From an uncultured Clostridia bacterium (lineage in GTDB: Bacteria; Bacillota; Clostridia; TANB77; CAG-508): a stretch of DNA of 64,000 bases. Each line of letters starts with the position of its first letter. Position 1 is the stretch's first letter. The translations under genes and the position numbers were made by a program. The notes under the pieces were generated by a model. It was not told the DNA's origin, searched no databases, and saw only the letters and a program-made list of their open reading frames with translations. This document shows positions 49,866-64,000 of this stretch, piece after piece. The DNA is taken from positions 1 to 64,000 of the forward strand of contig CANRGN010000009.1 of the NCBI GenBank assembly GCA_947630235.1, in the 5' to 3' direction.

Positions 49866-51422
49866 ATGGAAAAAGGAAGAGCAAATCGAAAACATTCCAA
49901 GTTATTGGCTATAATAATGTTTTTGATTGTATTGATTATAGCAACAATTATTTGGCTGATTTATGATTATACGAAAATTGTAAATTATTCAGAAGTTGCT
50001 AAATCAAAATTATCAACGCTCATAGGAATTTCTGATAATAACACTTTAATTAAAGGCAAAGTAATTGCAAAATATGTAGACAAAGATGGTAACGAGCTTG
50101 CTCCTAGTGAAGAGGTTGAAGGAAAAGTTGGAGATGAATATCGATTAGAAAGAAAAGATATATATGGATATACAACTTTAGGAGAAGAGCCTGTTAATAA
50201 AACAGGAAATTTTGAAAAAGAAGCTGCAGAAGTAGTTTTTGTTTATAAAAGTGAAAAAGAAAATGTTGATATTCTTGAAGAGAATAATGTAATAACAGTT
50301 AAAATGAAAAACGCAAAACAACCTAAAGAGTATAATTTAAAAATTGTAACAGAAGATGAAAAAGGAAATTTAGTAAAAGGTGTTGATTATACAGTTACAC
50401 AATCTCCAGATAGAAATTTAAGAAGTGGAACTGTTAATGGAAAAAGTTTTGTTGTGGGAACTTTAACCATAAATGAAGAAGGAAAAAATATATATTCAAT
50501 TTTAGAAGATGCTGGAGCATATTATGAAACATTAGTAGATGGTTCAATAGATTTTTCGATTAATAAAACATGGAACGACAATAAAAAAGAATTTGAGATA
50601 ACATTAGATTGTGAAGAGAAATACGAAGGTGTAAGTTTTGAACTTAAAGAAAAAGAAATAATTGTAAAAATAGTAAATAAAAAATTGGAAATACCAGAAA
50701 TACCAAACGGACCAGATGAACCAGATACACCAGACGAGCCAGATGAGCCAAATACACCAGATGAACCAAATACACCGGATGAGCCAAATGTACCAGATGA
50801 ACCAAATACTCCAAATGAGCCAGAAGATTTAAAATTTTTTGATTTATCAATAACAAAATACATAAGCAATATAAAAATAGAAAATAGAAAAGGAACTACA
50901 GAAATAAAAAGAGGATATGAAGACAAAGACAAAATAGTAAAATTAGAAATAGCATCAAAAGAAATAGCAAAAACAACATTAACAATAAAATATAAAGTAT
51001 TAATCGAAAATAAAGGAAACGTTCCTGGATATGCAACCGAAATTTCAGATTACATTCCAAAAGACTTAAGATATATTGATGATGGAAATTGGGAATTAAA
51101 TGATAGAAAATTAAGATGTACAGTATTAAAAGATAAATTATTAAATCCAGGAGAAAAACAAGAATTAGAAGTAAGCTTTGAATGGATATTAGATGAAAGT
51201 TCATCAGGTTCGAGAAAAAATGAAGTTGAGATTACAGAATATAATAATGATTTAGGATTAAAAGATCTAACACCAGATAATGTAGGATCAGCAGAAATGG
51301 TAATTGCAATAAAAACAGGTAAAGAACAGATATCAATACTTGCAATTTTGACTACATTAGTAATAATAACAATAGTAGTTTATGCAGAAAAGAGAAGAGT
51401 TGAAAAAGAGGAGGTGAAATAG
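49866..51422 (+). CDS. MucBP / DUF11-like surface protein with IKTG sorting-like end
   Basis: 518 residues. An N-terminal membrane anchor or signal (about 14-34); a MucBP-like domain (VIAKYVDKDGNELAPSEEV, about 63-130); a beta domain; a Pro-rich linker (TPDEPNTPDEPN, about 278-320); a DUF11/conserved-repeat-like beta domain (VLIENKGNVPGYATEISDYI, about 345-468); then AIKTGKEQ, a TM and EKRRVEKEEVK. The C-terminal layout is like a sortase signal, but the motif is IKTGK rather than LPxTG. AAGGGAGG precedes the start. It is translationally coupled to the next gene (stop and start overlap in TAGTG). Confidence 0.75.
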   Translation: MEKGRANRKHSKLLAIIMFLIVLIIATIIWLIYDYTKIVNYSEVAKSKLSTLIGISDNNTLIKGKVIAKYVDKDGNELAPSEEVEGKVGDEYRLERKDIYGYTTLGEEPVNKTGNFEKEAAEVVFVYKSEKENVDILEENNVITVKMKNAKQPKEYNLKIVTEDEKGNLVKGVDYTVTQSPDRNLRSGTVNGKSFVVGTLTINEEGKNIYSILEDAGAYYETLVDGSIDFSINKTWNDNKKEFEITLDCEEKYEGVSFELKEKEIIVKIVNKKLEIPEIPNGPDEPDTPDEPDEPNTPDEPNTPDEPNVPDEPNTPNEPEDLKFFDLSITKYISNIKIENRKGTTEIKRGYEDKDKIVKLEIASKEIAKTTLTIKYKVLIENKGNVPGYATEISDYIPKDLRYIDDGNWELNDRKLRCTVLKDKLLNPGEKQELEVSFEWILDESSSGSRKNEVEITEYNNDLGLKDLTPDNVGSAEMVIAIKTGKEQISILAILTTLVIITIVVYAEKRRVEKEEVK

Positions 51423-54400
51423 TGAATTCTAAAATCAAAAAATTATTGTTTATCAAGATAATTTGTATTATTTGTTTAATATTACCTAATAATGTTAAAG
51501 CAGATGATGAAATTGATAAATCTAAAGTACCAGTAAATTATACTATAAAAATAGATAAAATAGATACTGATACACAAGAGTTATTGCAAGGAGCTGTTTT
51601 TGAATTAAAAGATATAAACGGAAATGTAATAAGAACAGCTACTACAGATAATACTGGAAAATTAACCTTTGATCAAATAACAACTCTAGGTGAAGGTACA
51701 GATATTTATTATATAGAAGAAAAACATACGCCATCAGGATATACATTAACTGAACAAGAATCTATAGAAGTAAATATTACAAAACTTATTGAAGAAAATG
51801 GTACATATAAATTAAATGTTGAATGTGAAACATTAAATTATTCTTTTGATATATCAAGATATAATTTTATTCCAGTTGCAACAGCAGAAGCATTACAAAA
51901 GATTGGAACAGATGAAGAAATAGAATATGAAGGTATAAAATATACTTATTCAGCGAATGCAAATTATAAATTAGTAGCAGATATAGATTTAGGTGAAATA
52001 AATTGGGAACCAATAAACAAAAAGATAACTGGTATATTTGATGGTGATGGACATTCAATAAAAAATTTAAAAATATTTCCTAAAAATAATGGACAATTTG
52101 AATATTCAGAAATAGGATTATTTAGATATTTTTCAGGAATAGTTCAGAATTTAAATTTAGAGAAAGTAAATATTGCTGTTACTAATATTGATTTAGATTC
52201 TAATACTAAAGAACCTAAAATTTCACTATCAAAAAAGATAGGTGTAGGTGGATTTGCAGGTTTCATGGAAAAAGGTATAATAAAAAATTGTAAAATAGAC
52301 GGAAATATAGTTTCTAACTATAACAATGTAGGTGGATTTGTAGGACATAGTGCAGAAAAAAATATAATAAAATTTCAAAATTGTACAAGTTCTATAAACT
52401 TAATTTCAGCAAAAAAAAATGGCATAGAAGTATATAATGCTGGAGGAATGATAGGATGTGCAATAGGTTCAGTAAGTTTTGAGGATTGTACTTTTGATGG
52501 ATCTATTACTGGGGATGGAAACAATATAGGTGGTTTAGCAGGATTTGTTGAATCTACAGGATATGATGAATATTCAGTAAAAGCTGGTTATTCAGAGAGT
52601 AATAATGTAATATCTTTAGTTATTGGAAATTCAAAAATTTCAGGAAAATATGATTTAGTGTTAGAAAATCAAGATATTAAAGATCTAGGTCTACTTTCTG
52701 GAGCAAAATATTCTGTATATGATGCATATTTAAAAGTTATTCCAGAATTTGAGAATATCGAAATAAAAGATGGAAAATTACATATAGCAACAGTAGATAT
52801 AAAAGAATTTGGTACAGATATATATTACATTAAAGAGATAGAATCAGCACCAGGGTATGCAAGAATGAAAAGCTACATAAAAGTAATGGTAAAAAGATAT
52901 TGGGATAGAGAAACCAATTCGTTTAAAGTAAGTGTTGATGTAGAAAGCATAGGAGATGACAAACTAGAAGATGAATCAAAAACAGGAAATACTTATGAAA
53001 AAGTTGATAGCTTAACAGGGCAAACATCAACAAATGTAGATTTTGAGAATGTTGGATGGAACAATGCTAAAGCTTTATTTGAAAATTGTATAAATAATGG
53101 AAATATTCAAGGAAATAGAGATATAGGTGGTTTGCTAGGTACATCATATTGTAAGGTAGAAATGAAAGATTGCAAAAACTATGCAGAAGTTAAAGCTCAA
53201 GGCTCTGGAAAAGCAGCGGGATTAATAGCAAAAATCGAAAAACAAACTGAAATGTTCTTAGTAAAAATAGAAAATTGTTATAATGAAGGAAATATAACAA
53301 GTAGTTCACCAGGATTAGATTGTGCTTCAGGTATTTTGGGTCAAGTAATTGCAGATATTGAAATAAATAATTGTATGAATAAAGGAGAAATAACATTATC
53401 TCATAATGGTGCAATATCTGGTATCTTGGCTGATTTTAATGGAAATGCGGAAATTTTTAATTGTGTAAATGAAGGAGATCTATTAATGGTATCAAGTGAT
53501 CCAAGTGGTGTTAATGGTGTTGTTGGTGGAATAATAGCAAAAAATCATGTTATGAATAATTCAAGTACTAACAAAACACAAAATAATTTACATATTGTTA
53601 ATTGTAAAAATACTGGAATAATTAAATCAGATACACATTGCGGTGGAATTATTGGTATGTCTGATGGAAATTTTGTAATAATAGAAAATTGTGAGAATAG
53701 TGATAATTATATAACTGGTTCAGCTAGTGATAGTGGTGGAATGATAGGATTTGCTAGTGTAAAAACTATTGAGATAACAAACTGTAAAACTAAAAACACA
53801 AATTTTTCACAAACTGTTGGTGGAAATAAAATTTATGGATTAACTGGTGGAATTATAGGCGATTTTACTAGACATAATGGTACTAATCTAGGAGATACAA
53901 TAGATAAATCATTAATCATATCAAAATGTGATGTAATAGGATGTATAATTGAATCAAAAAATAAAGAGACTGGAGGAATATTGGGAGGAGGAGATATAGG
54001 GAATAATTATAAAGATATTATAAAAATTAGTAATTGTAATGTTGAAGAATGTGAAATTAGAAATGTAGATATCACAAGGTCATATGGAGGAAGTGGAGGA
54101 ATAGTAGGTGCAACATATTATGCAGGAAGTATAGATATAAAAGATTGTAATGTTAAATCTTGTGATATATCAACATATATGGCTTCTGGATATCCAGGTA
54201 GTGATACAAATTGTGGCGGTGCTGTAGGAATTGCATATAACTCAAATAGTATAGATTTAGCAAATATTTTTGTTGAAGATTGTGATATATATAATAATGC
54301 ACCAAATGATGGGTGTGCAAATACTGCAGGAATTATTGCTGGATATGGAAATGGTTCATCAAATACTAATCCTATAAAAATAGATAATTGTGATGTAAAA

Positions 54401-57400
54401 AATAGTAATCTAACAGCATTTTCTGGAAATTTAGCTGGTACAATTGCAATGATTTATTATACAGAAGCAAAAATAACTAATTGTGATAATATAGGAAATA
54501 CTTTATATTCAACATCTATAACAAACTCTAATTCAAATACAGCTGGTATAGTAGCAATGACATTTAAAGATATAATTATAGAAAACTGTAATGTACAAGG
54601 TAATGAAGATAAAAAATCATCGATTTATGGTAGAGGAAGAAATGTAGCTGGTATACTTGGAGCTAATTTAAATAAAACTACAGTAAAAAATGTTAATGTT
54701 AGTAATATAAAAATAGAATCACAAAGTTCTGATTATGGTAATAATACTGGTGATACAGTGTCAGGTGTTATTGGATATAGTTCAAATACACCAATAATTG
54801 CTGATTGTATAGTAGATAATGCAGAAATTAAAGGAATGGTTGCTAATTCATCTGGTATAGTTGGATCTTCTACATCAGATAATAAAGATGCTTATTTTAA
54901 AAATATAACTATTAGTAATTCAAATATATCTAATGAAATGACTTATTTAAGAAATACAAGTAATTCTTCTACATCTGGAATTATGGGATATAACCCTAAT
55001 TCATCAAATGTAATGGAATATGAAAATTTAAAAGTAGAAAATTGTAATATTACAGGTTCAGGTGTAGTTACATCAGGAATGATTGCTGTAGGATATGGTG
55101 GAAATTTTGTAGGATGCGAAATAAAAGATACTACTATAAAGAAAAATCCAGGAAATTTATATAAAAGTTATCCTGCCACTTCATCAATAGCAGGAATGAT
55201 TTCTGCAAGTAATAATACAAAATTAAAATTTTCTGAATGTAAAATAGAAAATGTATCTATTAGTGGTGATTGTTATTCACAAGGAGGATTGGTTGGTGCA
55301 ACTGTAGGAATGGAAAAATTTGAAAATAATACTATAAATGGATTAACTATGGATTGTACATCTGAACTAAATACTAGTTCAAATGGTAGTATTGGTGGAA
55401 TGATAGGAGATTTAAATTCTAATGATACAATTTCATTTGATAATTGTTCAGTAAAAGATTTTACTGCTACTTCAGGAAGTAATCATATTGGTGGACTTAT
55501 AGGTACATCTTCAATGAAGATAAATTTTAACAATTGTAATACATATGATTTAGATTTAACGTTTACAAATACAGTAGGTGGTAGTAATAGATGTATAGGA
55601 GGGTTTATAGGAGTAGCATCAGAAAATATAGTTATAGAAAATTCTACATCAAGTAATTCTAAATTTAAAGCTTTAGAAGGAAGTAGGAGCTGTTCAGAAA
55701 TAGGATCTTTTATAGGAGCAGGAATAGGCTTAAGTGCTTGGAATAATAAAACTGATAAAGTTAATGTAAAATTAAATAAATGTACAATAGAAGAAAATAT
55801 TTTAGTAAATAAAACTTCAGGAGGAATGGCAGGAGGAGTTGTAGGATTTAACAATTCTAATCAAGAATCTAGCACGCGAAAAGAAAACTATGTAATAGTA
55901 GAAGGAGAAGATATAAATGTTTCTAATTGTAATATATCAGCAAAAGCAGGTGTTGGTGGGTTAATTGGTTATGGTGTTGAAAAATTAGATAATATAAATA
56001 TTGATGGATGTACAATTACAAATAATGCTAATAATTACAATGGAGCAGGAGGAATAATAGGATTTTCTTTATCAATTAATGACAATTCAATTAAAAATTC
56101 TCATGTAACCAATTCAACAATTACTTCTAATTCTTATGCAGGAGGAATAATAGGTTATACATCAGGAAAAATTGATAATTGTACTGTAACAAATACTCCA
56201 ATTACTTCTGATTCATCAAGTAATTGTGTTGGAGGAATAGCAGGATTTACTTATGATACAACCAGTTCTATAACAGGTTCAAATGTAACTGATTGTAATA
56301 TGTCATCAAAGCAGTATGCAGGAGGAATAGTAGGATTTTCAGAAGGAAAAATTCAAAATTGTAATGTAGAAGGTCATAAAAATTATATAAAATCTGATTC
56401 AAGTAATGGATCTGTTGGTGGAATAGTAGGACATAATAATTATGCAAGTGAACTTTCAGATTTAACTGTAACTGGTTATGAGATTTCAAATTTACAAAAT
56501 GGAAATTATAATCATGTAGGAGGAATAGTAGGATTTACTAGTGGAAATATAAATGATTGTAATGTATCAAATACATCTATTACTTCAAATTCTTCAGCTT
56601 GTTTAGGAGGAATAGTAGGTATGGATGTTTCTAGTTCAAGTAATTCAAATAGTTCAAGTAAAACTAGAACTATACAAAATTCTACTGTGTCAAATTGTGA
56701 GATAACTAATAACTTTGTAAATACAGATGGTAGTAGTGGTTATTATGTAGGTGGTATAGTAGGATTTACAGATGGAAACTTAAACAGTGATAAAGTTAGT
56801 GATGGTACAAAAATTTCTTTAGTTGGAGAAAATTCTGTAAATGCTATCGGTGGAATATTAGGAATGGAATCTAATTCAGCTGTAGAAATAAATGATTGCT
56901 CAGTAGATACAATAACAGTTAATGGAAAAAATGGATTTATAGGAGGAATAGTAGGAGAATCAAATAAAAAAATATATGATTGTGATGTAAGTAATTCAAC
57001 TATAAAATCTGAAGGAGAAAGCTCTAATGGATGTGGCGGTATAGTTGGATGTGGTTGCAATAGTACTTCAATAGGTGAATGTTCAATTAAAGATTCAACA
57101 GTAGAAGCTCATGATAAAGTAAATTCTGTATGTGGTGTAGGTGCCGAAACATCTGGTTGCACAGTAGAGCATGTAAAGGTTATAAAAGATGGAATCGAGG
57201 TTATCGAGCCACAAGAATCACAAGAGCCACAAGCAACATCACTTGAATTAGAACCACAAGATTCTCTTGAAATAATTGATGAAACTTTAAATTCAGAACC
57301 AATTCAAGAAACTGAAGAACTTGAAAAAGATGAGATTTTAAATCCAACATCAGAAGAAATACCAAATACAGATATTCAAGATTCAAAAGAAGAACTAGAA

Positions 57401-57709
57401 CAAAATAAAGATGAAATTTTAGAAACAGATGTTGATAAAGAAAATGAAGAAAATTCTCAATATGATAGTAACTTGAATTTAAATGACAATTTAAAAGATG
57501 AAGTTTTATATAATGATAATGAAACAGATAAAAAAGAAGAGGAAAGCAATTCTGAAGATGTGGTTGAACCTGAAACACCAGATATAAAAGAGCCAAACCA
57601 AAACGAAGAAAATGACTCACAAGTTGATGAAGAAAAAATTACAGAAAGTCAAGAGCCAGATTCAAAAACAACTTTACAACAAGATCAAATAGAAAATGAA
57701 AAAAATTAG
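51422..57709 (+). CDS. giant SpaA / GLUG-repeat surface protein
   Basis: 2095 codons, GTG start overlapping the previous stop, with GGAGGTG upstream. The signal peptide (about 1-27, LPNNVKADD) is followed by a SpaA-like domain (KIDKIDTDTQELLQGAVFEL, about 33-123) and a second SpaA-like part (about 406-493). From about 245 to 1910 run several dozen GLUG-type repeats (GGIVGFTSGNINDCNVSN), forming an elongated beta-solenoid. The tail (about 1915-2095) is acidic and Pro/Gln-rich, a possible spacer across the wall. The frame stops at 57709 in a run of seven A's, but the adjacent frame carries on with the same acidic composition to 57777, so the C-terminus looks clipped by a one-base slip. No anchor is visible in either frame. 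Confidence 0.85.
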   Translation: MNSKIKKLLFIKIICIICLILPNNVKADDEIDKSKVPVNYTIKIDKIDTDTQELLQGAVFELKDINGNVIRTATTDNTGKLTFDQITTLGEGTDIYYIEEKHTPSGYTLTEQESIEVNITKLIEENGTYKLNVECETLNYSFDISRYNFIPVATAEALQKIGTDEEIEYEGIKYTYSANANYKLVADIDLGEINWEPINKKITGIFDGDGHSIKNLKIFPKNNGQFEYSEIGLFRYFSGIVQNLNLEKVNIAVTNIDLDSNTKEPKISLSKKIGVGGFAGFMEKGIIKNCKIDGNIVSNYNNVGGFVGHSAEKNIIKFQNCTSSINLISAKKNGIEVYNAGGMIGCAIGSVSFEDCTFDGSITGDGNNIGGLAGFVESTGYDEYSVKAGYSESNNVISLVIGNSKISGKYDLVLENQDIKDLGLLSGAKYSVYDAYLKVIPEFENIEIKDGKLHIATVDIKEFGTDIYYIKEIESAPGYARMKSYIKVMVKRYWDRETNSFKVSVDVESIGDDKLEDESKTGNTYEKVDSLTGQTSTNVDFENVGWNNAKALFENCINNGNIQGNRDIGGLLGTSYCKVEMKDCKNYAEVKAQGSGKAAGLIAKIEKQTEMFLVKIENCYNEGNITSSSPGLDCASGILGQVIADIEINNCMNKGEITLSHNGAISGILADFNGNAEIFNCVNEGDLLMVSSDPSGVNGVVGGIIAKNHVMNNSSTNKTQNNLHIVNCKNTGIIKSDTHCGGIIGMSDGNFVIIENCENSDNYITGSASDSGGMIGFASVKTIEITNCKTKNTNFSQTVGGNKIYGLTGGIIGDFTRHNGTNLGDTIDKSLIISKCDVIGCIIESKNKETGGILGGGDIGNNYKDIIKISNCNVEECEIRNVDITRSYGGSGGIVGATYYAGSIDIKDCNVKSCDISTYMASGYPGSDTNCGGAVGIAYNSNSIDLANIFVEDCDIYNNAPNDGCANTAGIIAGYGNGSSNTNPIKIDNCDVKNSNLTAFSGNLAGTIAMIYYTEAKITNCDNIGNTLYSTSITNSNSNTAGIVAMTFKDIIIENCNVQGNEDKKSSIYGRGRNVAGILGANLNKTTVKNVNVSNIKIESQSSDYGNNTGDTVSGVIGYSSNTPIIADCIVDNAEIKGMVANSSGIVGSSTSDNKDAYFKNITISNSNISNEMTYLRNTSNSSTSGIMGYNPNSSNVMEYENLKVENCNITGSGVVTSGMIAVGYGGNFVGCEIKDTTIKKNPGNLYKSYPATSSIAGMISASNNTKLKFSECKIENVSISGDCYSQGGLVGATVGMEKFENNTINGLTMDCTSELNTSSNGSIGGMIGDLNSNDTISFDNCSVKDFTATSGSNHIGGLIGTSSMKINFNNCNTYDLDLTFTNTVGGSNRCIGGFIGVASENIVIENSTSSNSKFKALEGSRSCSEIGSFIGAGIGLSAWNNKTDKVNVKLNKCTIEENILVNKTSGGMAGGVVGFNNSNQESSTRKENYVIVEGEDINVSNCNISAKAGVGGLIGYGVEKLDNINIDGCTITNNANNYNGAGGIIGFSLSINDNSIKNSHVTNSTITSNSYAGGIIGYTSGKIDNCTVTNTPITSDSSSNCVGGIAGFTYDTTSSITGSNVTDCNMSSKQYAGGIVGFSEGKIQNCNVEGHKNYIKSDSSNGSVGGIVGHNNYASELSDLTVTGYEISNLQNGNYNHVGGIVGFTSGNINDCNVSNTSITSNSSACLGGIVGMDVSSSSNSNSSSKTRTIQNSTVSNCEITNNFVNTDGSSGYYVGGIVGFTDGNLNSDKVSDGTKISLVGENSVNAIGGILGMESNSAVEINDCSVDTITVNGKNGFIGGIVGESNKKIYDCDVSNSTIKSEGESSNGCGGIVGCGCNSTSIGECSIKDSTVEAHDKVNSVCGVGAETSGCTVEHVKVIKDGIEVIEPQESQEPQATSLELEPQDSLEIIDETLNSEPIQETEELEKDEILNPTSEEIPNTDIQDSKEELEQNKDEILETDVDKENEENSQYDSNLNLNDNLKDEVLYNDNETDKKEEESNSEDVVEPETPDIKEPNQNEENDSQVDEEKITESQEPDSKTTLQQDQIENEKN

Positions 57710-57995: not shown

Positions 57996-58847
57996 ATAAG
58001 TAAAAAAATAAGTTCAGCGATGGTGCCAACAAATGATTATGTTTTTAAAAGAATATTTGGTCATATAGGAAATGAAAATATTACGATGGGATTATTAAAT
58101 GCTATATTGAATTTACCAATAGAAAAAATTAATTTAGATGAAAATAGAATATTAGAAAGAGATGTATTTTCAGATAAACTTGGAATTTTAGATATAAAAG
58201 CTACAATAAATAATAATATAGTGGTAAATATTGAAATGCAAGTAGTAAATTATTTTAATATATTTAAAAGATTAATGTTTTATTGGGGTAAAGCATATAA
58301 TAAAGAAATACAAAAAGGCGAAGAATATGATAATTTAAAAAAGACGATAGTAATTTTTATAGCAGATTTTGAAATAGATAACTTAGAATTAATTCCAAAA
58401 TATCATACAAAATGGCAAATACGAGAAGAGGATTTCCCAAAAATATTATTGACAGATGTATTTGAATTACATATAATTGAATTACCAAAATTAAATAAGT
58501 TAATAAAAAAAGGCAACAAATATGAAAATAAAAGTTTAGAATTATGGATAAAATTTTTATTAACTCCAGAAGAGATGGAGGTAAGGGAAATGGAAGATAA
58601 TAAAGCAATAAAAGAAGCCAAAGAAGTATTAGATGAAATAAGTCAAAATGAAAGAGAAGAATATTTAGCAGAATTAAGAGAGAAGCATATACTTGATTAT
58701 AATTCATCTCATAATGAAGGAATTAGAAAAGGAATTGAAGAAACTAAAAAAGAAACAGCTAAAAAAATGCTTGAGTTAAATTTAGATATTGAAACTATAA
58801 TGAAAGTTACAGAATTAACAAAAGAAGAAATAGAAAAATTAAGATAA
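57996..58847 (+). CDS. Rpn/PD-(D/E)XK nuclease family transposase-like protein 2
   Basis: From the ATG at 58020 it encodes 275 residues, but the Shine-Dalgarno AGGAGGTGG (57981-57989) points to an in-frame ATA at 57996, 8 nt away, giving a start SKKISSAMVPTNDYVFKRIF. This lines up with SSKEIPKYMYPQNDFIFKRL of the copy at 29973. I therefore think the original start was an ATG at 57996, now ATA. The core is ILDIKATINNNIVVNIEMQV (Asp, Glu-x-Gln) followed by MFYWGKAYNKEIQKGEEYDN. The C-terminus is helical. With AUA a poor initiator, expression may be low or use 58020. Confidence 0.75.
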   Translation: MSKKISSAMVPTNDYVFKRIFGHIGNENITMGLLNAILNLPIEKINLDENRILERDVFSDKLGILDIKATINNNIVVNIEMQVVNYFNIFKRLMFYWGKAYNKEIQKGEEYDNLKKTIVIFIADFEIDNLELIPKYHTKWQIREEDFPKILLTDVFELHIIELPKLNKLIKKGNKYENKSLELWIKFLLTPEEMEVREMEDNKAIKEAKEVLDEISQNEREEYLAELREKHILDYNSSHNEGIRKGIEETKKETAKKMLELNLDIETIMKVTELTKEEIEKLR

Positions 58848-59558: not shown

Positions 59559-60806
59559 ATGAACAATATGAATAGATCTCGAATTATTGTGGGAATAGGT
59601 TTTGTGTTAACAATAATGGCTATAGTATTTGTTGTGATTTTTAAAACCAGTTATTCATATTCAAGTGATGCAAATTATTTGGGAGAGTATGATAGTATTG
59701 CTTCTGATGATGATGGTGAGATAGAAGTAATGGAAAGTGATATTGCAAATGGTGATGAAGAAAGTGGAGAGGGTGAAGAAGAGAAAGAGAGTGATGTTTC
59801 AACTGAAGGATGGGATTTGACAAAAGTGAAGATTGAAACAGATTCTGAAGGAGTAAAAGTTCCAGTGCCAATTGGGTATGTTGCATCAAAAGCAACTAAT
59901 GAAAATACAGTGAAAACCGGATTTGTAATATATGAAGGAGAAGATGAGGTAACTGATGAAAATTCATGGGATGAATCAATAGAAAGAAATCAATGGGTAT
60001 GGGTACCAGTTTCAAATCCTGAAAGAATATATGAAACAGATTCTAGTGGAAGAAAAAAAGCAAAATTATATACATATTCTAATGAAAGCAGAAGTCCTTA
60101 TACCAATAGTAATTATGAACCAGCAGTAGTAAGTTATTATGATAAAGAATCTTCTTTTGCAATGTACAATTTGACAGGTATGACAAGAGATAGATTATAT
60201 CAAGAATTACAATCAGAATTTGATTCAACAATTGAATCAATAAAAAAATATGGTGGATTTTATATAGGTAGATATGAAACAGGAAATTTATCAAGTATAC
60301 CAGTAGTGCAAAGAATGAAGACAAATTTAACAAAACAAAATTGGTATACTTGGTATTCAAAAATGAAATATTTAGGAGCAAATGATAATGTAAAAGCGAA
60401 CATGATATGGGGATGTTTATGGGATGAGACATTACAGTGGTTAGTGGATTCTGAAAATAAAAGCTATTCAGATATATCTACTCATGATGGTTCAAAAGCC
60501 TGGGGAAATTATAAAGATTCAACATTTACTTATAAAAATACAAGTGGATCAGAAACAACAAAGTCTAGTAATAGTTCAATTATAATACCAGCTGGAAGTG
60601 CAGAATATACAAAAGCAAACAATATATATGATTTAGCAGGAAATGTTTATGAATGGACCTTAGAGGCCCACGGCGACAGCGGCCGCAGGTGTCGTGGGGG
60701 CTTTTACAACTATGACACGACCTACGCAAGCGACCACTACGACACCGATCCTAACAACACTTACAACGTTTTCCTAGGTGCTAGGGCGTACTTTTACATA
60801 AAATAG
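59559..60806 (+). CDS. DGR target: membrane-anchored FGE/C-type-lectin-fold protein
   Basis: 415 residues. An N-terminal TM anchor (about 9-31), an acidic Glu/Asp/Ser stalk (about 40-85), then the stretch KVPVPIGYVASKATNENTVK and a formylglycine-generating-enzyme-like (SUMF1/CLec) domain with GGFYIGRYETG, NIYDLAGNVYEWTLE and the closing LGARAYFYIK. The last 43 codons (60663-60792) switch abruptly to GC-rich codons and match the template repeat 200 bp downstream. That is the standard form of DGR variable proteins, in which exposed residues of the CLec fold are diversified for ligand binding. The anchor and stalk place the variable face outside the cell. AAAGGGAGG precedes the ATG. The ligand is unknown. 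Confidence 0.88.
   Translation: MNNMNRSRIIVGIGFVLTIMAIVFVVIFKTSYSYSSDANYLGEYDSIASDDDGEIEVMESDIANGDEESGEGEEEKESDVSTEGWDLTKVKIETDSEGVKVPVPIGYVASKATNENTVKTGFVIYEGEDEVTDENSWDESIERNQWVWVPVSNPERIYETDSSGRKKAKLYTYSNESRSPYTNSNYEPAVVSYYDKESSFAMYNLTGMTRDRLYQELQSEFDSTIESIKKYGGFYIGRYETGNLSSIPVVQRMKTNLTKQNWYTWYSKMKYLGANDNVKANMIWGCLWDETLQWLVDSENKSYSDISTHDGSKAWGNYKDSTFTYKNTSGSETTKSSNSSIIIPAGSAEYTKANNIYDLAGNVYEWTLEAHGDSGRRCRGGFYNYDTTYASDHYDTDPNNTYNVFLGARAYFYIK
60663..60792 (+). other. DGR variable region (VR)
   Basis: 130 bp at the 3' end of the target gene, in frame, aligned to the template at 60990-61116 with one 3-bp indel. It keeps GGCC, CGCAGG, ACGACC, GCAAGC and AGGGCGTACT. Of the template's 17 Asn codons 13 differ here (for example AAC to TAC, GAC, CAC, GGC), twelve of them by changes at A positions only. 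Several non-adenine differences also exist (TCT/GAC, GTG/GGG, ACC/GAC, CGC/CAC, AGT/ACT). Confidence 0.85.
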
Positions 60807-60989
60807 TAATTTTGACAAAAATTATTATTTTATTGTAGTACTGAATGCTGAAGGCGATAAATTAGGACGAGCTCGTAGTAGTTTTAGGGAAAAAAATAGT
60901 TTTTTAAAATTTTAAATAAATATTCAGAATTAAATATAACATATTAACTTTGAATTTATATTATAAAAATATAAATTAGGGATAATTCA
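60807..60989. other. spacer between VR and template repeat
   Basis: It holds a GC-richer block at about 60837-60892 that reads IVVLNAEGDKLGRARSSFRE in one frame without a start codon. Its meaning is unknown; it may be part of the DGR RNA leader or a gene remnant. No Avd-like helical-bundle gene is present. Confidence 0.4.
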
Positions 60990-61116
60990 AAGGCCAACGG
61001 CTCTAACAACCGCAGGTATCGTGTGGGCAATTACAACAATACCACGACCAACGCAAGCAACCGCAACAACAACAATCCTAACAACAGTAACAACAACGTG
61101 GGGTTCAGGGCGTACT
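60990..61116 (+). ncRNA. DGR template repeat (TR)
   Basis: A GC-richer island of 127 bp in AT-rich non-coding DNA. Read in the frame of the VR, 17 of its 42 codons are AAC or AAT (KANGSNNRRYRVGNYNNTTT...). Such Asn-codon stacking is the hallmark of DGR templates, whose adenines are copied with errors into cDNA. There is no start codon or upstream domain, so it is not the end of a second target gene. The frame runs on to a TAG at 61168-61170. Confidence 0.87.
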
Positions 61117-61260
61117 CTAATATTATCTCCGATTGTAGGTTTTACGGAATCTATACAGTAGAATATTAGATATTAAAGAGAGTTATTCCTTCCTAATTTA
61201 GGTAAAAATGAATCATTAGATTATATATAAGTAGGTTTCGAACATATATAATCTAAGCCC
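61117..61260 (+). ncRNA. structured spacer 3' of the template repeat
   Basis: It contains a 13-bp perfect hairpin TTAGATTATATAT (61216-61228) / ATATATAATCTAA (61244-61256), then GCCCGAAATGG. In the Bordetella phage DGR the segment just 3' of TR folds and is required for cDNA priming. This stretch has the right place and a clear stem, so I infer the same role. Confidence 0.55.
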
Positions 61261-61402: not shown

Positions 61403-61531
61403 ATGAAATTTACAAATGAAATAGAAAAATTGCAGAAAAAATATGCGGGAACTGTAATTTTAGTAAAAAATGGAATATTTTTTGTTGGAGTTGGAAAGGA
61501 TGCAATTATTTTAAATAGATTAAAAAGTTAA
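61403..61531 (+). pseudogene. truncated MutS-like DGR accessory protein
   Basis: 42 codons, AAGGGAATATATT upstream. KYAGTVILVKNGIFFVGVGK followed by DAIILNRL resembles the N-terminal MutS domain I-like motif of small MutS-like proteins reported beside DGR reverse transcriptases. The frame ends where such proteins normally continue, and no continuation is found in the other frames. I read it as the remnant of a DGR accessory gene. The assignment rests on one motif. Confidence 0.5.
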
Positions 61532-61560
61532 AAAAATTAAACTTTAAAAAGGAAAAAAGC

Positions 61561-61782
61561 TTGGAAATAGATAAATTTAAGTTCATTTATGGAAAAAATT
61601 TGACGCATAAAGCTGTTATAAAAATGAATGTTAAGTTGTGTGACAAAACAGTTATTGAATTTAAGACATTTGATGATATTGCTGATAAAATTTTAAGAAA
61701 TGAGTTTAAATTCGTGTATATTTGTGGACAAATTAAATCTGAAGGATATGTACAAATAAAAGAAATTGAGGAGGTGTACTAA
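61561..61782 (+). CDS. small protein of unknown function, coupled to the next gene
   Basis: 73 residues, TTG start after AAAAAGGAAAA. It alternates predicted strands and helices (HKAVIKMNVKLCDKTVIEFK, FDDIADKILRNEF, FVYICGQIKSEGYVQIKEIE), compatible with a small OB-fold-like or SSB-like beta protein, but no family is recognised. The stop overlaps the next ATG by one base (TAATG), and GAGGAGGTG inside its 3' end serves the next gene, so the two are translationally coupled. It may be a DGR-associated gene. Confidence 0.55.
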   Translation: MEIDKFKFIYGKNLTHKAVIKMNVKLCDKTVIEFKTFDDIADKILRNEFKFVYICGQIKSEGYVQIKEIEEVY

Positions 61783-64000
61783 TGAGAAAAGTTATAATTT
61801 CTATATTTATTTTGCTTGTAGTTTTGGTTAGTATAGTTTTGGGGAAATTGTTGATTACTCCTAATAATACTGGTTCTGAAGCTTTTTTAAGTAATGAGAT
61901 TAATCGATATAAGTCGTATAAAGAAGTTACTGATGAAGATGCAAAGATTAAAGATTGTGAATTTGTTACTTTTAATGCATTTTTTACAAGAGATCTTGAT
62001 GGAGATGGGTATGCTGAAAAGTATAATGGAACTTGTAATCGTTTAGATAAAACTGCTAATTTGTATTTTGATATTAATGTTTTAACAGATGGTCAACTAA
62101 AGGATGGAAAGATTAAGATTAATGGAAAAAACTTTATATTATCAACTACTTTAGTTAAAGATGAGGTTTTGGAACAAGATTATATTGGTAAAAATATTAC
62201 TGAATTTGATCTTAAGGATTTAAATAATGGTACTCAAAAATTATTTAGTGGAAAAATATCTGCAAATATTGGTAATAATATTGGAAATTATAGTGTAGAG
62301 GATAATACAGTTACTCTTACTGGAACTTGGGTTTCAAGTGAGAGTGGAGAAAAAAAGGATATAAACAAAACAATAAATTTAACAGTTGATTGGCATGGTA
62401 TTACTTCTACAGCTGTTTATAATAGTAGTAGCATTACAACAAGTCATAATATTGATGGAGTAATAGGAACTGATGATATTACACTTAGTTTTAATGTAGG
62501 GTATAGGGAAACTGCTGAAGAATTATTGATTCAAAAACAAGTTACAGAAGTTACTATACCATTGCTTAATGGATATGAACCTGATTCAGTAATTGTAACA
62601 ACTCAAAATTGTTCTTCAGAATATAATGATGAAACAGGAAAATTAACGATAACAAGACAAGCTTCTCTTGCTGATGATGAAAAAACTATTGTAGGCAGTG
62701 TTTCAAGAAGCAACATTTATTCAATACAAGTAAAATATCCTTTAGAAGCATATGAAGGAATAGAAGAAAATGAATCAATTAGCCTTGTAGTGCCAACTGT
62801 TGGATATTATTATGGATATAATAATACAAGTAAAGAGTTTGAGAATGTTAATCCTTATGTATCTAGCGCAAGTAAAACTTATACTCATATATGGAGAGAA
62901 ATTCCAGTTGCTGGACCTACTGAACCTGCTAGACCTGTTACTTATTCTCCAAGTTTTAATGTTTATGTAGGAAAGTATTCTTATAATATTGACACTAAGT
63001 CTTATCAATATGTAATTTCAAAAAAATTGCCTTTAAAAATATATAATAAAATTGGACAAGATGAGGAGGAAGTTGATGAATATGTAGTTGAGTGGAAAGC
63101 TTTTACTGGTAATACTACTGAGAATCAAAATGGTATTTATTTACAAGAAAATGGAGAAGATAAATTTTATGAGTCAGAAAATAATTCTACATCAATGAAA
63201 GAATATATAAATACAAGAGCTATTTATTTTTCTAGTTTAGATGGTCTTTTAGAAGAAAATGGATGGGTAAAATTATATGATGGTGAAAATGGAAATTTAA
63301 TAAAAACATTTACAAAAAGTGATTGGAATAAATATAATTCTAGTTCACCTTATGAGCTACCAACACCAGTAAAATCAATTAAAGTTGAAACTAGTGTTGC
63401 TAATGAAAATTCTTATTTATATGTTTATCAAATAAAAACTATAGATGATGAATTATTAACAGATAAGATTAAATATGAAGATTTTGAAAAATTTAATTAT
63501 ATTTATAGTTATTTAACAGGTGGTTTATTTACTGATAGAAATGCAGAAGAAAAAGTTCCTGATAGTGAGCTAGAAGAAAATATTCCTAATACAGATATTG
63601 AAGAAGGCGAAAACGTTCAACAAAGAACAAAAACGAAAACTGATAAAAACAATAAAGCTTATTATGAAGCACCGGTTTCTACTGCTACATTTTTTATAAA
63701 TCCTAATATTATATCAAATCAAGAAACCAAAAGAGTAGTTATGGAAATTACTACACAAGCAAATTATTTTAACGAAGAGAAGTGGAAAAATGGAGAATTT
63801 TTAATAGAGCTTCCTAAGGATATTTTAGCAGTAGATATTGAAAGTATAAAATCAAATAATGAACAGGTAAAAGTTTCTTCTTACGAAACTTATGAAGAAA
63901 ATGGAAAACAATATATAAAAGTATTTACTAGTAATGAAAAAGAGGATATTTATAAATTAACAATAAATGCAGATTTAACAGCAGATCCTAGAGAGCCTAC
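61782..64000 (+). CDS. large secreted surface protein, 5' part (runs off the window)
   Basis: Open from ATG 61782 to the end of the window, 739 codons, so the gene is incomplete. A signal or anchor (about residues 4-27, VIISIFILLVVLVSIVLGKL) is followed by a Ca-binding-like loop RDLDGDGYAEKYNG (about 71-84) and a series of beta-rich segments with Asn/Thr/Tyr-rich composition. There is an acidic linker near 590-625. No LPxTG, SpaA or LRR motif appears in the visible part. It has the style of the other giant adhesin-like proteins in this window. Confidence 0.75.
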   Translation, partial: MRKVIISIFILLVVLVSIVLGKLLITPNNTGSEAFLSNEINRYKSYKEVTDEDAKIKDCEFVTFNAFFTRDLDGDGYAEKYNGTCNRLDKTANLYFDINVLTDGQLKDGKIKINGKNFILSTTLVKDEVLEQDYIGKNITEFDLKDLNNGTQKLFSGKISANIGNNIGNYSVEDNTVTLTGTWVSSESGEKKDINKTINLTVDWHGITSTAVYNSSSITTSHNIDGVIGTDDITLSFNVGYRETAEELLIQKQVTEVTIPLLNGYEPDSVIVTTQNCSSEYNDETGKLTITRQASLADDEKTIVGSVSRSNIYSIQVKYPLEAYEGIEENESISLVVPTVGYYYGYNNTSKEFENVNPYVSSASKTYTHIWREIPVAGPTEPARPVTYSPSFNVYVGKYSYNIDTKSYQYVISKKLPLKIYNKIGQDEEEVDEYVVEWKAFTGNTTENQNGIYLQENGEDKFYESENNSTSMKEYINTRAIYFSSLDGLLEENGWVKLYDGENGNLIKTFTKSDWNKYNSSSPYELPTPVKSIKVETSVANENSYLYVYQIKTIDDELLTDKIKYEDFEKFNYIYSYLTGGLFTDRNAEEKVPDSELEENIPNTDIEEGENVQQRTKTKTDKNNKAYYEAPVSTATFFINPNIISNQETKRVVMEITTQANYFNEEKWKNGEFLIELPKDILAVDIESIKSNNEQVKVSSYETYEENGKQYIKVFTSNEKEDIYKLTINADLTADPREP

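Follow-up and report, generated by a model that had tools for sequence, protein, structure and literature searches.

The window, by which the whole analysed stretch of 64,000 nucleotides is meant, contains near its downstream end a target gene, a non-coding repeat of the 3' end of this gene, the remains of further genes and a large surface-type gene. The features are listed below with the evidence for each.

59559-60806, + strand: target gene of 415 aa (ORF), with an N-terminal membrane anchor, an acidic stalk, a CLec/FGE-fold domain and the variable repeat at the C-terminus
59580-59645, + strand: hydrophobic membrane anchor, residues ~8-29 (sequence; helix 2-32 in the model)
60663-60792, + strand: variable repeat (VR), ungapped core 60664-60767 (alignment)
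60953-60977, + strand: 5' hairpin of the template RNA unit, AATTTATATT/AATATAAATT (minimum-energy fold)
60978-60988, + strand: leader strand, pairing with 61180-61190 across the template repeat (covariation; fold of the window's own sequence)
60990-61114, + strand: template repeat (TR) without an ORF of its own; read in the frame that matches the VR, it has 17 Asn codons
61115-61256, + strand: 3' domain, the Rfam RT-14 RNA (RF02921; own model R1; compensatory changes), made up of a stem-hairpin, the leader-pairing strand 61180-61190 and a terminal hairpin 61217-61256
61403-61531, + strand: truncated MutS-domain-I-like gene, 42 of about 129 codons (match to a protein of the relative G061)
61517-61561, + strand: deletion junction (comparison with the relatives G061 and G073)
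61561-61782, + strand: ORF of 73 aa, a remnant or homologue of the small ORF found after the reverse transcriptase (RT) in relatives (match to the G061 ORF)
61782-64000, + strand: large surface-type protein, running off the window (ORF)

Target gene and its two repeats

The original prediction described the target as a membrane-anchored protein with an acidic stalk and a fold of the CLec or formylglycine-generating-enzyme (FGE) type. The anchor and the stalk were found both in the ORF sequence and in the AF2 model of the 415 residues (pLDDT 72.5), where an acidic low-confidence stretch at residues ~40-85 stands beside a globular domain. The fold was upheld as well. In VIA-align, the variable proteins TaqVP (T. 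aquaticus) and TvpA (T. denticola) of diversity-generating retroelements (DGRs) ranked at the top with Z 11.4 each over ~200 residues, while FGE reached Z 9.9 and Mtd Z 8.6. Foldseek returned weak E-values only, and the fold was settled by VIA-align. The window target thus has the FGE-type CLec fold in common with TvpA and TaqVP, but at 14-19% identity, and it differs from both by its membrane anchor and acidic stalk. By sequence the protein stays outside the FGE-sulfatase family (PF03781), with 16.0 bits against a Pfam gathering score of 23.3. The membrane anchor suggests that the target is displayed outside the cell. The VR lies at the 3' end of this CLec-fold target, as is the case in DGRs. 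Outside the VR, comparison with a paralogue on another contig of the genome (C14) gave a dN/dS of 0.14/0.30, which indicates mild constraint only.

Several further observations concern the surroundings of the target. An open frame 3' of its stop codon (60835-60916; VVLNAEGDKLGRARSSF...) is similar to the tail at the C-terminus of the G061 target (KVALSPEGDAPERFQTS...) and, judged by this likeness, is probably the fossil of a longer C-terminus. Directly upstream of the target lies a PDDEXK_2-family transposase-like gene (58020-58847), and similar ORFs are found upstream of the targets of two other genomes (G073 and G078). Further upstream (51422-57709), a 2095-aa protein with SpaA and GLUG-motif domains is probably a large adhesin-like surface protein.

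The VR had been claimed to match a non-coding region packed with Asn codons. This was borne out: positions 60664-60767 (VR) and 60991-61094 (TR) are 78% identical over 104 nt without a gap, and a genome-wide BLAST with the VR as query matched the TR at E 1e-17. The codon counts given in advance were exact, as 13 of the 17 Asn codons in the in-frame TR differ in the VR, 12 of them by A-only substitution. The expected adenine bias was likewise recovered when substitutions were counted by template base: in the 104-nt core, template A is altered at 16 of 42 sites and non-A at 7 of 62 (Fisher p = 0.0017). The A residues changed to G (8), T (6) and C (2).

The simple reading of the two repeats as template and product stands as far as this A-bias is concerned. 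It does not stand in other respects, as there are seven non-A mismatches, a length difference and no RT nearby. The seven non-A mismatches include an entire codon (TCT to GAC). Near their 3' ends, the two repeats differ in length by about one codon (NVFLGARAY in the VR, NNVGFRAY in the TR). At the two 3' ends, where the initiation sites IMH and IMH* would be expected, VR and TR have only AGGGCGTAC in common. Overall, 70% of the core mismatches face an A and 30% do not, which is under the share of 75% at A that is typical of DGRs (PMC8144416). TR and VR are not identical at their non-A sites and, with the difference in length, the TR in its present form therefore did not write the VR. No better donor was found, as none of the other TRs collected gave a better fit than the neighbouring TR. 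As sequences, the non-A mismatches would fit drift and a donor template absent from the assembly alike. They would also, together with the length difference, fit an ordinary repeat, such as a fragment of a gene duplication, unrelated to DGRs. This last explanation has next to no probability in view of the A-bias, the RT-14 RNA directly 3' of the TR, the remnants of DGR accessory genes at the locus and the occurrence of the same TR/RT-14 unit in relatives, where it stands beside DGR RTs with zero non-A mismatches between VR and TR. A match to the TR flank on contig C8 of the same genome (32 nt, 91%) is surrounded by unrelated sequence and probably arose by chance.

The template as a structured RNA

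The TR is present as predicted, yet it does not stand alone as a repeat: it belongs to a structured RNA with an RT-14 domain. The 3' domain of the window scored 113.4 bits against RF02921 (gathering 48.1) over the full length of the model, which makes it a member of RT-14, and in our own RNA model its score adjoins those of the G061 copies. Within the stem of the domain (UCUAAUAU/AUAUUAGA) lies a hairpin that shows compensatory changes. Over the 150 nt that follow the TR, the DNA is non-coding and conserved: the window locus (contig C9) and a sister locus on contig C80 of the same genome are 82% identical here, while their target proteins share 44%. RT-14 is already catalogued in Rfam, and the 3' domain of every template unit scanned reaches its gathering score. 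What differs in the present units is that the domain is tied to a 5' TR and a leader strand outside the Rfam model, and that the units occur in arrays and also at positions far from any RT.

The leader strand pairs with the 3' domain across the TR. In 19 units, 92% of the cells of this helix are paired, compared to 79.9% in shuffles (0/500), and slid controls gave 31-57%; the leader strand was taken to be the conserved motif that borders the TR on its 5' side and was chosen partly by best pairing, which somewhat favours the cells-paired figure. The compensatory changes are the stronger evidence, with 33 double-change cells versus 10.1 in shuffles (0/500). The window's own sequence folds into the 5' hairpin, the leader helix, the stem-hairpin and the terminal hairpin (z -2.5). 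Pairing of the leader with the 3' domain would close the TR into a loop. A hairpin at the position of the 5' hairpin is also found in most G061 units, at C80 and in G073. In the last two (C80, L032; G073 C26, L186), perfect 14-bp hairpins adjoin the TR leader on its 5' side; they occupy the same position within the unit and are unrelated to each other in sequence (z about -9). Matches to a sigma-70 promoter or a terminator within the template unit were no more frequent than expected by chance.

The spacer that follows the TR of Bordetella recruits RT-Avd and serves to prime cDNA synthesis (PMC12875486). By analogy, the RT-14 domain may recruit RT-Avd and prime the cDNA here. In our reading, the template is a discrete structured RNA composed of a 5' hairpin, a leader, the TR as a closed loop and the RT-14 3' domain.

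Loss of the enzyme block and the search for a reverse transcriptase

The gene order of relatives accounts for what follows the template unit. In G061, a genome of the same genus, the target is followed by six TR units, a MutS-domain-I-like gene, Avd, RT, an 82-aa ORF and a surface protein. The order in G073 (contig C26) is target, one TR, MutS-like gene, Avd, RT and small ORF. The MutS-like remnant of the window is 61% identical to the G061 protein over 38 aa (E 2e-15), and the full G061 protein matches MutS_I. The 73-aa ORF matches the 82-aa ORF of G061 from its residue 13 (59% over 70 aa, E 1e-32). The remaining codons of the MutS-like gene, Avd, RT and the start of the small ORF are missing at the junction; a search that covered the C9 locus found no Avd. 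The comparison with these relatives shows that RT, Avd and most of the MutS-like gene were removed from the window locus by an internal deletion. Paralogues of the large surface-type protein follow the other three target copies of the genome.

Neither near the TR nor elsewhere in the assembly (97.5% complete, 92 contigs) was an RT found with PF00078 or with a model built from the RTs of 16 relatives. Lacking an RT of its own, the locus cannot rewrite itself. The original prediction of a DGR cassette was thus not sustained: the RT block is deleted, the assembly holds no RT and the neighbouring TR is not the exact template of the VR. An RT may nevertheless have been missed in the genome, because the assembly is in 92 contigs and repeat-rich DGR loci break assemblies. 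The same fragmentation, and the sequence common to paralogous loci, would allow the RT block to be present in the real genome and to have been dropped when repeats were joined. Such an artefact is quite unlikely, since a truncated MutS-like ORF meets a truncated small ORF with no long repeat in sight, and the contig runs on normally into the surface-protein gene.

Besides the window copy, the genome holds three target paralogues, on C80, C14 and C57. C80 has its own TR and VR, which differ by 22 A mismatches versus one non-A mismatch and by a gap of one codon, and it has no RT. No TR was detected at the C14 and C57 copies. The near-fresh pair of VR and TR at C80 speaks for recent RT activity.

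Template RNA units were found with our own RNA model in 9 of 53 genomes of the genus, and a pattern scan of GTDB genomes added eight more with a unit, labelled as uncultured Clostridia and Lachnospiraceae MAGs. A DGR RT is present in 15 of the 17 gut-Clostridia genomes with a unit, the exceptions being the window genome and G079. In 23 further genomes of the genus, the 16-RT model gave matches, of which some are weak. In G079 (C37, L191, 1988-2689), a deletion has fused the MutS-like gene in frame to the C-terminus of the RT; the catalytic part is gone and that genome has no other RT. The core pattern of RT-14 had 0 matches in viral contigs and the TR unit had 0 in phages and plasmids, and so there is no sign in these collections of a phage origin.

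Multiple templates and the state of the window locus

DGRs are usually described as one template that feeds one or more targets beside the RT. Nine template units were counted in G061: six in tandem beside its only RT, and three that stand free among housekeeping genes, of which a pair on C3 is flanked by an nrdG-like and a prs-like gene and a single one on C13 precedes a thrS T-box, with target and RT absent from both of the latter places (template units L093 on C20, 9851-11864; L094, 10878-11411; L095, 7654-7813). G064 has five tandem units after its RT and G072 at least two in tandem, while G076 has one free-standing unit on C11 and its RT on C5. The VR of G061 differs from unit 4 by 8 A and 0 non-A mismatches and from the other eight units by 10-21 non-A mismatches. 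In G064, the VR differs from unit 3 by 4 A and 0 non-A mismatches and from the others by 8-11 non-A. Only one of many units matches exactly at non-A sites in each genome, so the current VR was written from a single member of a diverged group of templates. The apparent donors of both genomes sit in the RT-adjacent array and not among the free-standing units.

The templates vary among themselves as well, mostly at A-bearing columns. Among the units of G061 and G064, 79% and 76% of these columns vary in the TRs; in the 3' domains the shares are 44% and 41% (p 2e-4 and 3e-3). For non-A columns, the difference between TR and 3' domain is small (p 0.03 and 0.8). This pattern suggests that the TRs themselves received mutagenised copies, although selection on template codons could look the same.

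From these observations, we are confident that the window contains a DGR derivative which lacks an RT and comes from a multi-template lineage; it is probably dormant unless an RT acts in trans. The A-bias, the DGR-type fold, the RT-14 RNA, the leader helix, the deletion remnants, the gene order of relatives, the assembly without an RT where 15 of 17 genomes with the unit have one, the several templates of relatives and the RT-less sister locus C80 support the derivation; against it, the seven non-A mismatches of the VR could also be drift. The VR at the C-terminal tip of the membrane-anchored CLec/FGE-fold target would once have been rewritten by mutagenic retrohoming. In this lineage, one target can be served by one of several alternative template units, as was shown in two relatives, and comparison with relatives shows that the window locus lost its MutS-like/Avd/RT block by internal deletion. 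Of the two states this allows, dormancy is somewhat the more probable and is supported by the lack of an RT in a 97.5%-complete assembly, the decay of sister loci and the parallel RT-less G079. Service in trans, by an RT missing from the assembly, is somewhat doubtful, though the near-fresh C80 pair, the intact RNA units and the free-standing templates of relatives support it.

Whether the locus is a dead remnant, in which TR and VR drifted apart after the RT block was lost, is evenly poised. The deletion, the 30% of VR/TR mismatches off A, the RT loss in G079 and the leftovers after core loss described for T. denticola (PMC4891356) fit such a remnant. It has to reckon with an RNA unit and an ORF that are still intact, with an RT-14 domain that scores beside the G061 copies and with the nearly fresh C80 pair. 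Conversely, RT, Avd and perhaps templates in an unassembled repeat-rich locus might act in trans on the targets of C9 and C80 and rewrite both, the VR of C9 having come from another template. The C80 mismatches (22 A versus 1) without an RT in cis would agree with such an active non-autonomous cassette, as would the RNA units conserved at both loci, the templates remote from the RT in G061 and G076, and the eight of nine G061 templates that differ from their VR at 10-21 non-A sites, where the C9 TR differs at seven. It is a minority view that is opposed by the lack of an RT in the assembly and of a better donor among the TRs collected, by C14 and C57 without a detected TR and by the loss of the RT in G079 without a second one.

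The RT-less derivative that we prefer resembles the Bordetella BPP-1 type of DGR (with Avd) in the A-biased TR/VR pair, the VR at the 3' end of a CLec-fold target, the structured RNA 3' of the TR and, in its relatives, Avd and RT. It differs in the deleted RT and Avd and in its non-A mismatches, and its relatives differ in their several templates, which are diverged and stand in tandem or on their own. Loci that are incomplete or served in trans are described for Thiohalocapsa PB-PSB1 and Treponema denticola, with trans activity inferred from non-A matches and with leftovers after core loss (PMC10907252, PMC4891356), and a survey reports some DGRs with more than one TR (PMC6642488). DGRs, trans-acting and remote targets, RT loss and multi-TR DGRs are already known from these three papers. 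In the passages found there, nothing corresponds to three features of the present lineage: diverged templates that fold individually and are arrayed in tandem, units placed apart from both target and RT, and the use of one template out of many for one VR. No description of these three features was found in open-licence literature.

The template appears here as a modular folded RNA that can multiply, be located apart from RT and target and persist after the RT is lost. Surveys whose pipelines begin with the RT are blind to such loci, and the RT-14 RNA offers a handle for finding them. Only tentatively can it be proposed that the DGR templates of this gut-Clostridia lineage are independent RNA genes, tandem and dispersed, which serve one target in trans, with the window locus as a non-autonomous member still rewritten by a remote RT. 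If this were true, a cell could exchange one template for another and so alter which residues stay fixed and which become random, much as if antigenic variation from silent cassettes were joined to DGR mutagenesis. Choosing among diverged TRs would add a second layer of variation above A-mutagenesis, and modular templates would be useful in the engineering of targeted mutagenesis.

Some minor observations were made in relatives. The 72%-complete G018 (L098-L102) has eight target-family matches and no detected RT-14 unit, and its target family has possibly expanded. In G073 (C26, L186, 7536-8565), the RT is frameshifted at the GNYTSQ motif and VR and TR differ by 17 A and 0 non-A mismatches; a second, intact RT lies on C36. 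The RTs of G003 (C70, L035), G005 (C15, L039) and G014 (C18, L040) have a common frame break near GVNFC that divides them into about 273 aa plus 84 aa, possibly a programmed frameshift or a recent loss. Despite this break, G003 and G014 yielded VR/TR pairs free of non-A mismatches.
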